From Candidatus Zixiibacteriota bacterium (lineage in GTDB: Bacteria; Zixibacteria; MSB-5A5; UBA10806), in assembly GCA_024641335.1 (NCBI GenBank), contig JAHEDG010000028.1, forward strand, positions 1 to 37,978: a stretch of 37,978 nt of DNA, given 5' to 3'. Each line of letters starts with the position of its first letter. Within the stretch, counting starts at the first letter, position 1. A program made the translations under genes and the position numbers. Shown in pieces: positions 8,624 through 20,371 of this stretch. The notes below the pieces were generated by a model. The model saw only the letters and a list, made by a program, of their open reading frames with translations. It did not search any database and was not told the origin of the DNA.

Positions 8624-9835
8624 TTATAATAGCAGATCGGTGTCTTTCGAATCGATATTGTTTTCGATTTGAGACGTTTGAGAATCAAGTTCCGCTATCC
8701 GCGGCTCGATACCGTCGGTTTTGTTGAGAGTCTCGATACCCGCGACCTGTCTGTCCAGCATTCTCGTTCTGGCGCCGACCATCTCGTCGAAGGCTTTGCG
8801 GGTATTGTCGATTCTGTCTCCCACAACCTTCATGGAATCGACAAACTTCTTCCACTGCGCCGCGAAGCCCCCCAGTAATGCCTGAATCTTCCTCGACGAC
8901 TGCTGGAGACTGAAATTATCCACCGCCTGGCGGATCAGGGCCAGCATGGCGTATAAGGTCAAGGGGGAGCAAAGAACCACTTTCTGGTTAAGCGCTTCAT
9001 CGAGTATGGCGTCGTCGTTTTCATGTATAAAAGCGTAAACCTGTTCATTGGGGATAAACACCAGAACATAATCAACAGTATTATCATCAGGATTGATATA
9101 ATCTCGTCCGGTGACTTCCTTGATTCTCTTGCGCACAGATGAAAGAAACTGTTTTTTGGCGTTTTCCTTCTCGATATCGCTGGGGGCCTTGAGATACTCG
9201 AGGTATTTATCAAGCGGGAATTTGACATCCATATTGACCTTAAGATCGTCGGGCAAGAGGAATGTAAAATCGGGTCTCGATCTGCCCCCTTCTATTGTCT
9301 GCTGCTTTCGGTAATTGATTCCTTCCCGAAGCCCCACGGCGCGCAATATATCCTCGGCCATCCGTTCGCCCCATTGGCCGCGGACCTGTGTCGACGATAA
9401 CGCCCGGTTTAATGATTCGGTTGTTTTGCGAAGATCCTCGCTCTGCCTGGCGATCTGCTCGATAGCCGAACTGACCTTGCCGTATTTCTCCGGCACCGCC
9501 AGGTTGATATCGGTCATCAGCTTCTGGACTTTCTCCAGCCGCTCCTGCATCTCTTTAGCCAGACTTCCCAGCGATTGATCGATCAGCTTCTTTTTCGATT
9601 CTAAATCGGCCGAGCTTTCCAATGTCTTGGCCTCCAGCATCTCTTTTGAAAGTTTCACCAGCTGGTCTGTCGATTGACCCATCACATCGAGAGAAACCGC
9701 CTTAAACGAATTCTCCATTTCCGCCTTCAATTGCTGATACTGCGTATCCATTCCGCCCTTGGAAAAGCGATTGACAAAAAACACTACGCCGGCGCCGAAC
9801 AACGCTCCCAATATGAATATTAATATCGGCGACAA
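8624..9835 (-). CDS. rmuC: DNA recombination protein RmuC
   Basis: A 403-residue RmuC. One N-terminal membrane helix (residues 3-22) is followed by a long coiled coil to about 140. The RmuC nuclease-like domain starts at VRGQWGERMAEDILRAVGL and continues through RPDFTFLLPDD, NMDVKFPLDKYLEYL and DYVLVFIPNEQVYAF. RmuC limits inversion of short inverted repeats in E. coli and is thought to be a nuclease. The start codon is TTG, five bases after AGGGGG. The aminotransferase-fusion gene lies upstream on the same strand. Confidence 0.95.
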   Translation of the reverse strand: MSPILIFILGALFGAGVVFFVNRFSKGGMDTQYQQLKAEMENSFKAVSLDVMGQSTDQLVKLSKEMLEAKTLESSADLESKKKLIDQSLGSLAKEMQERLEKVQKLMTDINLAVPEKYGKVSSAIEQIARQSEDLRKTTESLNRALSSTQVRGQWGERMAEDILRAVGLREGINYRKQQTIEGGRSRPDFTFLLPDDLKVNMDVKFPLDKYLEYLKAPSDIEKENAKKQFLSSVRKRIKEVTGRDYINPDDNTVDYVLVFIPNEQVYAFIHENDDAILDEALNQKVVLCSPLTLYAMLALIRQAVDNFSLQQSSRKIQALLGGFAAQWKKFVDSMKVVGDRIDNTRKAFDEMVGARTRMLDRQVAGIETLNKTDGIEPRIAELDSQTSQIENNIDSKDTDLLL

Positions 9836-9896: not shown

Positions 9897-12227
9897 TCAA
9901 ATCCCGATTATCCTGTTTATCCGCTTCTGAATTTCCTCCGGCGCGCCGGCTCCGATATTGATGAAATACGGTTTCGCCTTATTGAAAAGCTTTTCATAAA
10001 ACCGCTTTCGGGCATCCATTCTGTCGGTTCCCCTGACCAGAATATGAGGATTAAAAAACGGCTCCGATTTCATCATTCCCGCCTGCGATAAACCGTCCTC
10101 GCAAAAACGCAACGCTTCATCGATGGTTGGCTCCGAGACCATCGGGCTGATCGGATCGTTCTTCAAAAGCAATATCAGTTTTAGCGACGTTCTCTTGGTA
10201 TGTTTGGCCTCTCCGTCGATCCAGTACGGATCGAGCATGGCTCGGGATACCGGCGATCCCTCGTAGCAAAACGGCATTCCGGTGTCGAGGCCGCATCTAT
10301 CCTGTTTCTGGCAGGGGCCGTTGATACATTCCTCTTTGCTGGTAATAACATTCTCGCATTTCGATTTATCGAATAGCGGGGCGAAATCAGGATATTTTTC
10401 CACGAGATTGGTCTGCATATAAAATTTCCGTTCGGGCACGTCGGCAATGGCCTCATTTCCGATCCTGATAAATACGACATCATCGCTGACCAGCTTTGAT
10501 TCCGGATGACGCAGCAGGTTGGCAAAATAGGCCGCTTTACCGGTTCCCCTGGGAGCTATCAGGAGCAGGCCGTCGCCGCCGAAATCGAGACCCAGACCTC
10601 TGACCGAGTATGTGTCGGTCAGCCGCGACGAGATATCGTCGGCGATACCTATGGCCAGCGATCTCAACTGACCGTAATAGGCCGATTTGAATAAAACAGC
10701 CGTGCGCGACTCGCTGTTGTAATAAGCTCTCGGCTCCCGGCCGGGTACCCAGCCGACGGCGTAAATGATTCCGTGAGGCTCGAGATCAGTCTCCAGCTGG
10801 GCTGGATACCAGTTCTCCATCCAGAAATCGTATAGATGAGGCAGGTTGGTGCGAAGCTGCACAACCACTCCCTGAATATTGGCATTCCACTCGAAATAAC
10901 CGGCATTAGAAAGATGCGCCCGCGCCTCAGCCGTCAGAGCGTCCCGCAGCTCCGGCCCCACATTGGTTTCGGTCTCGACCAGATCCTTACGCATTGTTAC
11001 GGTATTATTCAGCGAAATTGCCCGGGCCGCCCTGGTAGGTTCCAGTTTGGCCAGCGCCGAGATAATTCTGTCCAGCGAATTCTCGATATTTTTCATCGAC
11101 GTCGCGTACGACAGCCTGATATACCCTTCGGAGCCGAACGCCTCTCCCGGCACCACTGCCACATGAGCGTGTTTCAGAAGATAATACGCCAGGCCGTAGG
11201 AATTGCGAATCTGCATGCCGTCATACTCTTTTTTGAAATATGACACCACGTTGGGGAAAAGATAGAACGCTCCCCGAGGTTCATAACAAGCCACGCCCGG
11301 GACACTCCGCAAACGATCGAGGGCGTAGTTGCGTCGGATCTGAAATTCGTTTCTCATCCGGCTGATCTCGTGCTGCGGTCCGGAAAGACCTTCAAGGGCG
11401 GCCATCTGTGAAATCGACGAGGCATTGGATGTATTATGCGACTGCACCTTCGACATTCCTGAAATCAGTTCGGTCGGGCCGGCCGCGTAACCGATCCGCC
11501 AGCCGGTCATGGAATACGCCTTGGATACGCCGTTGATGATTACCGACTGTTCCTTCATTTTTTTATTCAGCGAGGCGAACGATACGAACTCGAAACCGTC
11601 ATAAACCAGCTTTTCGTATATCTCGTCGGATATGACCAGTATCCCCTCGTCGGCGACAATCTCGGCCAGCTCCAGAAGCTCGTTTTTTGTATAGCCACCG
11701 CCTGTGGGGTTCGACGGGTTATTGATTATCAGGGCTTTGGTCGACGGCGATATAGCCGAGGAGAGCTGGTCAGGCGTAAGGCGGAATCCGTTCTCTTCTC
11801 TGGTCTGGACAACCACCGACGTTCCTCCGGCCAGATTGACCATCTCCGGGTAACTCACCCAGTAAGGGGCCGGAATAATCACTTCGTCGCCCGGATTTAG
11901 TATGGCCATGCATAGATTGTACAAACAGTTTTTGGCTCCGGTCGAGACAATTATCTGATCGGGGCCGTACTCAAGATTGTTTTCTTCCTTGAGCTTTTTG
12001 GCAATAGCTTTGCGCAACGGCAGAATGCCGTCGTTGGATGTATACCTGGTAAAATTATTATCTATGGCTTTCTTGGCGGCTTCCTTGATATTCGCCGGAG
12101 TGGGAAAGTCCGGTTCGCCGACCGAGAGATCTATAACATCGATCCCCTCGGATTTCATGGCCGACGCTTTGGCCGAGATTTTCAGCGTGGGAGAAAATCC
12201 CACCCGCTGTACTCTATCCGATAACAT
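9897..12227 (-). CDS. Fusion of aspartate aminotransferase and HPr-kinase/PEPCK-like P-loop domain
   Basis: A 776-residue protein, about twice the length of a normal aspartate aminotransferase. Residues 1-395 are a complete class-I PLP enzyme: NNPSNPTG at 169-176, DEIY at 201-204, the PLP lysine K236 in VSKAYS, and R371 in IRLSYA for the substrate carboxylate. Residues 412-776 form a separate domain. GLLLIAPRGTGKAAYF (553-568) is a P-loop, and KLVSDDVVFI (578-587) matches the Asp pair that follows the P-loop in HPr kinases and ATP-PEP carboxykinases. ERKFYMQTNL (599-608) recalls their substrate loop. Five cysteines (624, 634, 639, 645, 654) follow. AAAAGGAT precedes the ATG. Activity of the second half is inferred from motifs only. 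Confidence 0.85.
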   Translation of the reverse strand: MLSDRVQRVGFSPTLKISAKASAMKSEGIDVIDLSVGEPDFPTPANIKEAAKKAIDNNFTRYTSNDGILPLRKAIAKKLKEENNLEYGPDQIIVSTGAKNCLYNLCMAILNPGDEVIIPAPYWVSYPEMVNLAGGTSVVVQTREENGFRLTPDQLSSAISPSTKALIINNPSNPTGGGYTKNELLELAEIVADEGILVISDEIYEKLVYDGFEFVSFASLNKKMKEQSVIINGVSKAYSMTGWRIGYAAGPTELISGMSKVQSHNTSNASSISQMAALEGLSGPQHEISRMRNEFQIRRNYALDRLRSVPGVACYEPRGAFYLFPNVVSYFKKEYDGMQIRNSYGLAYYLLKHAHVAVVPGEAFGSEGYIRLSYATSMKNIENSLDRIISALAKLEPTRAARAISLNNTVTMRKDLVETETNVGPELRDALTAEARAHLSNAGYFEWNANIQGVVVQLRTNLPHLYDFWMENWYPAQLETDLEPHGIIYAVGWVPGREPRAYYNSESRTAVLFKSAYYGQLRSLAIGIADDISSRLTDTYSVRGLGLDFGGDGLLLIAPRGTGKAAYFANLLRHPESKLVSDDVVFIRIGNEAIADVPERKFYMQTNLVEKYPDFAPLFDKSKCENVITSKEECINGPCQKQDRCGLDTGMPFCYEGSPVSRAMLDPYWIDGEAKHTKRTSLKLILLLKNDPISPMVSEPTIDEALRFCEDGLSQAGMMKSEPFFNPHILVRGTDRMDARKRFYEKLFNKAKPYFINIGAGAPEEIQKRINRIIGI

Positions 12228-12269: not shown

Positions 12270-13664
12270 TTACGATTTCTCGCCTTTGTTACCGGATTGT
12301 TTTTTATCTTTATCCGTTGTCGACAGCTTCTCCACCAACTTTTTCAGATCGATGCCGGAGAGCGATTCCACCACGGTCGGAAGCTGGCCCAATACTTCGG
12401 CTACCTGTCCGGTCAGCTTGGACGCCCCTCCTCCGCCCGAATCGACCATAACGATTTTCTCGACTTTGCTCAATGGTTCGGAGACCGCGCGGGCCAGTTC
12501 CGGCAGTATTGAAATTAGCATTTCGTAAATGGCCGCCTGACTGTATTGCCCGTACGATTCCGCTTTTTTGAGCATTATCCCGGCTTCGGCTTCGCCTTCG
12601 AGCCTGATCGCGTTCGCTCTGCCTTTCGACTCCGCTTCCAGCTTGAACGTTTGAGCCTCGGTTTCCGATATTATTTGGTACTTGCGGGCGTCGGCTTGTT
12701 TCTTGATCGTCGATTCGAGTTCCTTTTCCCTGCGAAGGATCTCCTTTTCCTCGACCTTGATCGCCTGCTCTTTTTCCACCAGACGAACCTGGTATTCCTC
12801 TCGTTTCAATTGCTGGTTTATTTTCTGACGTTCCAGCTCATAGGCTAAATCGGAGGCGGCTTTTTTCTGATTGACCATGGCCTGGTATTCGGCCCGTTTG
12901 AGCTCGTAATCCCGGTTGGCTTCGGCTATCTGCGATTCGGCCCTGAACTTGGCTATATCGGCCTCCTTACGGGCTTCGGCCGCTTTCACCGTAGCGTCCC
13001 GTTCGGCCTCCGCCTCAGCTACCGCCGCTTCTCCTCTGGCCTGGGCGATTCGCGGTTTGCCCAATGCCTCGATATAGCCGGCTGTATCTGAGAGGTCCTT
13101 TAACGAATACGAAAGAATCACCAGACCCATCGCCGAAAACTCCTCCGAGGCCGCTTTCCTGACCCGTTCGGCGAACTCCTCTCGTTTTCCGAAAAGCTCC
13201 TCGACCGACATAGAACCCAGTCCGGCCCGCATATGCCCTTCGAGTATCTTGGAAGCTATATCTTTTATCCCCTGAGAACCCTTGCTCAAAAACTGCTCGG
13301 CCGCCATACGAATAGAGTATTCGTCTCCGCCGATCTTTATCTGAGCCTGACCGTGAGCGTTGACCTGTATCCCCAGCGCTGTGATGGCCTCGTTGCATTG
13401 CATATCGATTGTCATGACCTCCAAAGGAAGCACCTGGGCCGATTCCAGAAACGGTAAAACCAGAGTTCCGCCTCCTATGCGCGCCCGGTAACCGATCTTC
13501 CTCCTAACCCCATCCGGATCCGTAACCGTCCGTTTACGTCCCCCGGAAATAATGAGAACCTCATTCGGACCGACGTTGCGATATTGCCTGGACAGTAAAA
13601 TCAAAATAAAGGCGATTAAAACTACTATGACAAAAACCGATATCAATAGAGTGTTCAGCTCCAT
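12270..13664 (-). CDS. Flotillin-family SPFH protein
   Basis: A 464-residue flotillin-like scaffold protein. One N-terminal membrane helix (5-26) is followed by an SPFH/band 7 domain (about 28-190) and a long alanine/glutamate-rich coiled coil (about 200-365) containing the EAEAERDATVKAAEARKEAD type repeats of flotillins. A short C-terminal domain follows. Flotillins form membrane microdomain scaffolds that organise signalling and transport proteins. GGAG sits before the ATG. It lies 42 bases upstream of the aminotransferase-fusion gene on the same strand, so co-transcription is possible. No NfeD partner is visible here. Confidence 0.93.
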   Translation of the reverse strand: MELNTLLISVFVIVVLIAFILILLSRQYRNVGPNEVLIISGGRKRTVTDPDGVRRKIGYRARIGGGTLVLPFLESAQVLPLEVMTIDMQCNEAITALGIQVNAHGQAQIKIGGDEYSIRMAAEQFLSKGSQGIKDIASKILEGHMRAGLGSMSVEELFGKREEFAERVRKAASEEFSAMGLVILSYSLKDLSDTAGYIEALGKPRIAQARGEAAVAEAEAERDATVKAAEARKEADIAKFRAESQIAEANRDYELKRAEYQAMVNQKKAASDLAYELERQKINQQLKREEYQVRLVEKEQAIKVEEKEILRREKELESTIKKQADARKYQIISETEAQTFKLEAESKGRANAIRLEGEAEAGIMLKKAESYGQYSQAAIYEMLISILPELARAVSEPLSKVEKIVMVDSGGGGASKLTGQVAEVLGQLPTVVESLSGIDLKKLVEKLSTTDKDKKQSGNKGEKS

Positions 13665-19153: not shown

Positions 19154-20371
19154 CTATTGGTCAGAATCCGGGCGCGACATCAGATATAGCTTATTGTCAA
19201 AAACATAAAACGGCGGCAGAACTCCCTCATATCCCTGATTTTCCAGATATAATCCGTAATTATTCTCGCTGATCACTGCCACCGCTTCGAAAACGTCGGA
19301 TTCGTTTAAGTGAAAAATACTATAGTGGTTGTAAAAAACCGAATATCTTCCCGTCGCCGTGGAATCATCGATAATCGCTGTCAGAATACCCTCGGCGGGA
19401 ATAGCGGGGAGCTCCGTCGGGTCGGCCGGATCGGAGAGATCCAGTACCAGATGGTTTTTGGGAAAATTCCGATAATCGCCTTCAGGCATGATAACCTTAT
19501 CGCCATACATAAACCCTGAGCCATAGGTAAAGAAATCTCCCGCGTAGATTTCGATAATATTCGCGGGATCGCCAGAATCGAAGATTACGGGATTAGGGGC
19601 ATTGTAGTTGAGGGATATGAGGTAATCCGAGGAGAATGTCACATAGTCCGAGTAGACTCCCCCTATACTATCCAGCCGCGTTATGAAGCTATCGCTGGAA
19701 TAAGAAAAAACCTCAATAATGCCGTATTGCGTCACGGCTATAATGGTATCCTTTTTAGCGAATGACCTGGAGTAGCCGGGGATATCGAGATTGTACAATT
19801 GTTCCGGGAAGTACGGATTTTGAATCAAATAAACGTAAATCCCGCTTTGAAAGGTAGAGTACCAGAGCGTATCGCCGTAGAGCTTTAACCTGGATACCGA
19901 GCCGGGCAGCGTTGTCGATGACAGCTCGGTAACATGGCTATCGTCGTATCCATAGATCCTGAATTTCCCAAGGTAATCCAAAGTCAGAATCATTTCCGGC
20001 TCGATGCTTATCAGGCTGCCCTCGATCTCCCCAATCTCGTCGAATTTCCATGGAGTCGGTTCAAGGGTATACCGGGTACGCCGCAATTCAGGAATATTTA
20101 TCGAAAAATAGTTGTTTTTGTAGATATCGGCTGAATAACCTGCGGCGGTTGAGGGAAGCATAGCCCAGCCGGCGCTATTGGTTTCCACCAGGTACCAATC
20201 CCAGTCAAACCCTCCGCTGATCCAGGCTCCGGCAATCGGCATACCCTGTGGATCGTTTACCCAGACAACAAAAGCACCGTTCCCCGGCGATGACGGTTTA
20301 TCGTCGCAGGCAAAAATCAAAGACACCAATACCGCGAGGAAGACAGCCAAATTCATTTTTCCCGTTTTCAT
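19154..20371 (-). CDS. Lipoprotein with carboxypeptidase-like and beta-propeller-like domains
   Basis: A 405-residue exported lipoprotein. The signal peptide ends in the lipobox SLIFAC, with C22 as the lipidated residue, followed by DDKPSSPG. Residues 30-95 (VVWVNDPQGMPIAGAWISG) look like a carboxypeptidase-regulatory/Ig-like repeat. From about 110 on, repeated blades such as LKLYGDTLWYSTFQSGIYVY, DTIIAVTQYGIIEVFSY and HLVLDLSDPADPTELP suggest an LVIVD-type propeller. It is probably anchored to the outer membrane. GGAGG lies before the ATG. No enzyme motif is visible. It stands alone between the relic region and the surface-polymer operon. Confidence 0.82.
   Translation of the reverse strand: MKTGKMNLAVFLAVLVSLIFACDDKPSSPGNGAFVVWVNDPQGMPIAGAWISGGFDWDWYLVETNSAGWAMLPSTAAGYSADIYKNNYFSINIPELRRTRYTLEPTPWKFDEIGEIEGSLISIEPEMILTLDYLGKFRIYGYDDSHVTELSSTTLPGSVSRLKLYGDTLWYSTFQSGIYVYLIQNPYFPEQLYNLDIPGYSRSFAKKDTIIAVTQYGIIEVFSYSSDSFITRLDSIGGVYSDYVTFSSDYLISLNYNAPNPVIFDSGDPANIIEIYAGDFFTYGSGFMYGDKVIMPEGDYRNFPKNHLVLDLSDPADPTELPAIPAEGILTAIIDDSTATGRYSVFYNHYSIFHLNESDVFEAVAVISENNYGLYLENQGYEGVLPPFYVFDNKLYLMSRPDSDQ

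Follow-up and report, generated by a model that had tools for sequence, protein, structure and literature searches.

A putative aspartate aminotransferase fused to a degenerate domain of predicted PEPCK fold, encoded beside a flotillin gene and often with a divergent PEPCK

A gene that joins a putative aspartate aminotransferase to a degenerate domain of predicted PEP carboxykinase (PEPCK) fold was found in a DNA stretch of 37,978 nucleotides from a Candidatus Zixiibacteriota bacterium; this whole stretch is called the window below. The fusion is real and old. In the reading we favour, which we think has about an even chance of being right, the C-terminal domain (C-domain) would carry out no PEPCK chemistry and would act as a docking or a sensing/regulatory module, the fusion being part of a three-part aspartate-oxaloacetate-PEP unit with a flotillin and a separate PEPCK of ∼610 aa. 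Both halves have known folds; their combination appears to be undescribed. Searches of the open-access literature (most subscription journals lie outside this coverage) turned up neither an aminotransferase joined to PEPCK nor this set of genes, and no pseudoenzyme of PEPCK fold. The first-pass annotation of the window, made from the sequence alone, had likewise known of no such fusion.

The fusion gene is a single uninterrupted frame of 776 codons starting from ATG on the minus strand; the plus-strand frame of the same interval contains many stops and is closed. The parts of the gene and its two flanking genes are as follows:

9897..12227, minus strand: fusion gene, 776 aa, putative aspartate aminotransferase plus degenerate domain of predicted PEPCK fold
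11043..12227, minus strand: residues 1-395, class I (putative aspartate) aminotransferase domain
11013..11042, minus strand: residues 396-405, low-confidence linker joining the domains (full-length model pTM 0.53; low pLDDT at 400-403)
9900..11012, minus strand: residues 406-776, predicted PEPCK-fold C-domain (AlphaFold, Foldseek, hhalign)
10803..10898, minus strand: residues 444-475 (YFEWNAN, QLRTN, ENWYP), N-lobe, the best-conserved stretch of the C-domain
10536..10556, minus strand: residues 558-564, APRGTGK, P-loop; Lys564 is kept and the next Thr/Ser is Ala565
10479..10496, minus strand: residues 578-583, KLVSDD, counterpart of PEPCK D268-D269
10425..10436, minus strand: residues 598-601, PERK; E599, R600 and K601 invariant in 53/53 homologs
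10266..10358, minus strand: residues 624-654, five cysteines, partly of low model confidence
12270..13664, minus strand: flotillin (SPFH/Band 7 plus flotillin domain), 464 aa, 42 bp upstream of the fusion, a conserved neighbour
8624..9835, minus strand: RmuC-family protein, 61 bp downstream of the fusion

The P-loop, the KLVSDD motif and the five cysteines were all found where the first-pass annotation had placed them. As a finding that would speak against a fusion it had named homologs with two separate genes and a missed stop; we looked for these, and at each of 90 loci with a C-domain the two halves lie in one ORF, finished chromosomes (CP070813, CP070742 and CP070674 among them) included. 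A missed stop, a frameshift or an assembly joint is thus ruled out. The packing of the two domains is not interpretable from the full-length model, given its pTM of 0.53. A metal site formed by the five cysteines was considered and rejected: the cysteines do not have the status of a strict motif, and several lineages miss two or more of them.

Residues 1-395, read earlier as a complete aminotransferase, indeed cover the whole of the class I model PF00155 (Pfam, E 7.5e-80). The domain has the PLP lysine (K236), the Asn/Asp/Tyr contacts (N173, D201, Y204) and the C-terminal substrate Arg (R371) of this class, all of them invariant in 31 aligned fusions. The closest solved proteins are bacterial aminotransferases, including Sinorhizobium AatA (6f77, E 7.4e-110); the match to this protein, as well as to Phormidium 1j32 and Thermus 1bjw, is full-length, with PLP lysine and substrate Arg shared, whereas these proteins end at about residue 400 and the fusion continues with a second folded domain. 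The best characterised relatives are aspartate aminotransferases, and the specificity may be for aspartate/2-oxoglutarate; NCBIfam scores, however, stay below the curated cut-offs (438.8 bits for residues 1-395 against the 617 bits of the aspartate transaminase model). With its conserved, intact-looking active-site residues this half is probably active as an aspartate aminotransferase. Annotation by homology of the first half alone would yield ‘aspartate aminotransferase’ and miss the second half, for which no Pfam or NCBIfam model scored above its cut-off; the present finding corrects such automated annotation.

The structure prediction that the first-pass annotation had proposed for the C-terminal half was run on residues 406-776 and gave a confident model (pLDDT 90.8, pTM 0.90) with the two-lobed PEPCK fold. 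All 50 listed Foldseek matches of the model in the PDB were PEPCKs, with no HprK among them; the top ones were the ATP-PEPCKs of E. coli and Trypanosoma (E 1.4e-17, TM-score of the query 0.70-0.76 over the whole domain, 0.76 for E. coli 1oen). HprK structures matched the C-domain weakly (E 0.004). Profile searches by sequence gave HprK matches for 26 of 47 C-domain homologs (best E 5.9e-8) and PEPCK matches for nine of the 47 (best 4.9e-5). None of the 47 matched PF01293 in Pfam, even at E 1, and the curated PEPCK score was not reached; the curated HprK scores were missed as well, the window protein obtaining 18.3 bits where TIGR00679 demands 240 and 13.1 where PF07475 demands 33.3. By hhalign, the C-domain aligned with a mixed profile of canonical and 610-aa PEPCKs at E 6.2e-7; the local profile alignment reaches E. 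coli PEPCK only from about residue 140.

On the evidence of the predicted model, then, the C-domain is a shortened PEPCK along its whole length, beyond the P-loop core common with HprK, and by fold PEPCK is its closer relative. The earlier placement in the HprK/PEPCK superfamily stands, while membership in the HprK family, the other option it had offered, is rejected: by sequence the P-loop core alone matches, and the curated cut-offs are missed. Weak hits in genome searches (E 1e-3 to 1e-6) were confined to that core (approximately profile positions 126-208) and fell in ORFs mostly of HprK size; they look like HprK and were rejected.

In comparison with ATP-PEPCK (PckA, PF01293; E. coli 1oen/1ayl), the C-domain has the predicted fold in common from one end to the other, and its motifs (ENV, kinase-2 Asp) follow in the same order; it differs in having ∼370 rather than ∼530-540 residues, structural-alignment identity of 13-16%, loss of the catalytic Lys213 and usually of His232, a P-loop that is often altered, and fusion to an aminotransferase. 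With HprK (TIGR00679/PF07475) it has in common a P-loop core detectable by sequence; however, the catalytic His of HprK is replaced in most members and the scores are far below the curated cut-offs.

The extent of residue loss was assessed in 53 C-domains (47 plus six from a deeper branch, ‘type II’), in E. coli PEPCK numbering. Residues were assigned from the deeper profile alignment; other alignments disagreed near K212/K213 and R333, and Lys213 was lost under every alignment tried. The equivalent of Lys213, a Mn2+ ligand, is kept in one C-domain and gone in 52; that of His232 is kept in eight and gone in 45; that of Arg333 is kept in 25. The P-loop Lys254 is kept in 36 and is Arg in 17, and the Thr255 position holds Thr/Ser in 40 and Gly/Ala/Gln in 13. 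The Asp269 equivalent (D583) is Asp in 50 of the 53; the first Asp of the pair (D582) is variable. None of the 53 combines Lys213, His232 and Lys254, or even the last two. The window protein has S523, R543, K564, A565, D582, D583 and R662 at the PEPCK sites; neither the Mn2+ site Lys213/His232/Asp269 (here S523, R543, D583) nor the P-loop pair Lys254-Thr255 (Lys564 followed by Ala565) is complete. The aligned region begins after Arg65 of the PEPCK N-lobe, and for the N-terminal part of PEPCK around this residue the 371-residue domain has no clear counterpart.

At the same time, 30 positions are invariant in all 53 sequences, including Y444, E446-A449, Q457-N461, E471, N472, P475, E599-K601, E625-N626, D666-P667 and W669. 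Constraint on the C-domain is therefore strong, but it falls outside the active site of PEPCK. Judged from sequence comparison, the loss of PEPCK residues combined with constraint elsewhere points to either a pseudoenzyme or an altered chemistry; what marks a pseudoenzyme, a homologous fold under selection whose catalytic residues are lost, is present here as far as the predicted fold and the residue census go.

In the same 53 homologs, the His232 position and the P-loop Lys are mutually exclusive: His occurs with an Arg P-loop, Lys with Arg (once Cys) at position 232. The two positions are residues 543 and 564 of the window protein (10599-10601 and 10536-10538), and the pattern looks like a coupled charge swap inside the former active site.

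A search for the C-half, with each species represented by a single genome, gave 80 loci, and more loci came from relatives of the window genome. By record titles, the hosts are Zixibacteria, Aminicenantes, Ignavibacteria and other Bacteroidetes, Calditrichota, Planctomycetota, TA06 and Acidobacteria. The fused C-part is present in 20 of 58 sampled genomes of the window's class, in 15 of 149 Acidobacteriota genomes and in one of 148 Bacteroidota genomes, the query genome itself. The first-pass annotation had suggested looking for the second domain both alone and with the aminotransferase; in all 90 loci it shares a reading frame with the aminotransferase, and no stand-alone copy was found in the species scan or in the genome searches of the class, Acidobacteriota and Bacteroidota. 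In a tree rooted on a pair of unfused aminotransferases of the window's class, the unfused enzymes of genome G007 (support 0.985) and of genomes G125 and G150 (support 0.991) fall within the clade of the fusions. Such nesting rules them out as ancestors; the C-domain was therefore lost there, at least twice.

The flotillin gene lies immediately upstream of the fusion on the same strand in 90 of 93 assessable loci, often with a gap of <50 bp. A nucleoside-diphosphate kinase gene is situated between the fusion and the ∼610-aa PEPCK gene in up to 18 loci, mostly of Zixibacteria, a placement that fits nucleotide use by this PEPCK. Outside the family-level clade of the window, the RmuC gene directly after the fusion is not conserved. 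Elsewhere in the window, where no RNA families or tRNAs were found, a 405-aa ORF without Pfam or NCBIfam match (19154-20371) adjoins minus-strand genes for a teichoic-acid-type glycerophosphotransferase, asparagine synthase and a polysaccharide exporter.

Of 102 loci examined, 71 encode the divergent ∼610-aa PEPCK along with the fusion (loci, not independent genomes, are counted here, as some represent the same genome reached twice); its gene is either downstream of the fusion or divergent from the flotillin side (L104, L105, L109, L122, L123). The protein matches PF01293 (2.7e-23) and the NCBIfam model NF006821, PRK09344.1-3 (1.2e-81). It belongs to the same superfamily as the C-domain (hhalign E 6.6e-6) and occurs in the same loci and genomes; unlike the C-domain, it is stand-alone and keeps K213, H232, K254 and the other residues checked. 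Equivalents of Y207, K212, K213, H232, K254, D269, K288 and R333 are invariant in 29/29 partner PEPCKs, and both Asp residues of the motif QDDI are invariant too (MAFFT placed D268 one position off); no assignment was possible for Arg65. The intact-looking set of residues checked, Arg65 not among them, makes it probable that the ∼610-aa PEPCK is active. In the window's genome it is encoded on a separate contig (C79, 8287-10065, minus strand), outside the window, and a canonical PEPCK on contig C32; this genome thus has three PEPCK-fold proteins, the canonical one, the 610-aa one and the fused domain. The canonical PEPCK gene (L120 1-6303, C32) is near a carboxyltransferase-like gene.

Across genomes the fusion and the ∼610-aa PEPCK tend to occur together. 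In the window's class the latter was present in 17 of 20 fusion genomes and in none of 38 others (Fisher p 5.8e-12; weak PEPCK hits in four genomes belonged to another PEPCK type and were not counted), in Acidobacteriota in 12 of 15 and in four of 134 (Fisher p 4.8e-12); both p-values overstate independence, the genomes being related. Of the four acidobacterial exceptions, G216 has a contig that breaks off within a fusion-type aminotransferase, of which residues 1-62 are left, and G125 and G150 have the ∼610-aa PEPCK together with an unfused aminotransferase of the fusion type. The sole sampled genome of its order in which the C-domain was lost, G007, has no ∼610-aa PEPCK either and possesses a GTP-PEPCK instead. 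Complete fusions without the ∼610-aa PEPCK were seen in G001, G002 and G004 (of the window's family), in G191, G226 and G152, and in the genomes of loci L006, L018, L020, L032, L039 and L075. Fusions without the ∼610-aa PEPCK, along with genomes that have this PEPCK and an unfused aminotransferase (G125, G150), indicate that docking to PEPCK is not the whole function of the C-domain. In G002 (locus L124, 96% complete), neither ATP- nor GTP-PEPCK was detected, and no flotillin adjoins the fusion; this genome is a test case for a C-domain acting alone.

In the three-part unit, the aminotransferase half of the fusion would interconvert aspartate and 2-oxoglutarate with oxaloacetate and glutamate, and the separate ∼610-aa PEPCK would interconvert oxaloacetate and NTP with PEP, CO2 and NDP. 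The degenerate domain may dock onto the partner PEPCK, take up a ligand (nucleotide, oxaloacetate or PEP) or do both, and in this way pass on or gate the flux of oxaloacetate; the flotillin, as a membrane scaffold, may anchor the unit. This scheme starts from the fusion, the predicted fold, the residue losses, the neighbourhood and the co-occurrence; from them we infer the two enzyme activities, the physical interaction, the membrane placement and the direction of flux. The 30 invariant residues, a sign of strong selection for something, and the joint absence of C-domain and ∼610-aa PEPCK from G007 argue for the unit; the nearly invariant Asp583 and Lys564, kept in two thirds of the homologs, argue against it, as nucleotide binding or some other phosphotransfer is possible. 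One could speculate further that the PEPCK-derived pseudoenzyme, fused to the aminotransferase, recruits the intact PEPCK paralog and the flotillin to the membrane, aspartate and PEP being exchanged on a membrane-attached assembly; this extended version we consider unlikely.

The first-pass annotation had suggested that the product of one half could be substrate of the other, with transamination linked to PEP formation or phosphorylation in one protein. A bifunctional enzyme whose C-domain converts the oxaloacetate made by the first half into PEP is improbable in our estimate. It would agree with the PEPCK fold, with oxaloacetate being the product of the first half, with G002, where the fusion is the only candidate detected, and with the presence of Asp582-Asp583, Lys564 and Arg662 in the window protein; however, Lys213 is gone in 52/53 and His232 in 45/53 C-domains, the P-loop Lys has become Arg in 17/53, Thr255 is Ala in the window protein, and the N-terminal part of PEPCK that bears Arg65 has no clear counterpart. 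Besides, a gene for a PEPCK that keeps every catalytic residue checked (Arg65 not among them) usually adjoins, and a canonical PEPCK is also encoded in the genome of the window. The handing-over of product to substrate probably fails within the protein and may hold between the fusion and its PEPCK partner; the link between oxaloacetate and PEP as such has gained independent support from the genomic context, with the ∼610-aa ATP-PEPCK adjoining in most loci and co-occurring across genomes.

The C-domain might also be an active phosphotransferase of new specificity, an HprK-like protein kinase/phosphorylase or a small-molecule kinase, perhaps acting on the aminotransferase, the flotillin, the PEPCK or another protein. 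The retention of the P-loop Lys (36/53) and of the kinase-2 Asp (50/53), the weak matches to HprK profiles (best 5.9e-8) and structures (E 0.004) and the invariant polar residues E599, R600, K601, R459, N461, N472, E625 and N626, which could form a new active site, are consistent with such an activity; yet Arg replaces the P-loop Lys in 17/53, the Ser/Thr after it is Gly/Ala/Gln in 13/53 (Ala in the window), most members have Arg where HprK has its His, and HprK is absent from the 50 listed Foldseek matches, all PEPCKs. We regard the phosphotransferase as somewhat unlikely. Quite improbable, to our mind, is a C-domain that merely regulates or oligomerises the aminotransferase, for instance as a nucleotide or PEP sensor, with PEPCK and flotillin as neighbours by shared regulation rather than by contact. 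The persistence of the fusion in genomes without the ∼610-aa PEPCK would be expected in that case, as would the loss of the C-domain at least two times while the aminotransferase stayed; but in several phyla the neighbourhood has survived reshuffling of its genes, and co-regulation does not usually require that much.

The fusion would be a natural union, where aspartate, oxaloacetate and PEP meet, of an enzyme and an apparent decayed copy of the next enzyme of the pathway, the two having been retained together across several phyla with few cultured members. Through it one can ask in concrete terms whether pseudoenzymes of PEPCK fold regulate genuine PEPCKs, and whether flotillins of bacteria organise enzymes of central metabolism.

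Some loci show a further C4-dicarboxylate link. The ∼610-aa PEPCK gene in L115 (2930-4799) and L116 (4190-6047), and the fusion gene in L105 (3371-5259), adjoin a gene for an acyl-CoA carboxylase-type carboxyltransferase together with a small biotin-carrier-like gene; PF01039 was matched in the carboxyltransferase genes of L115 and L105.
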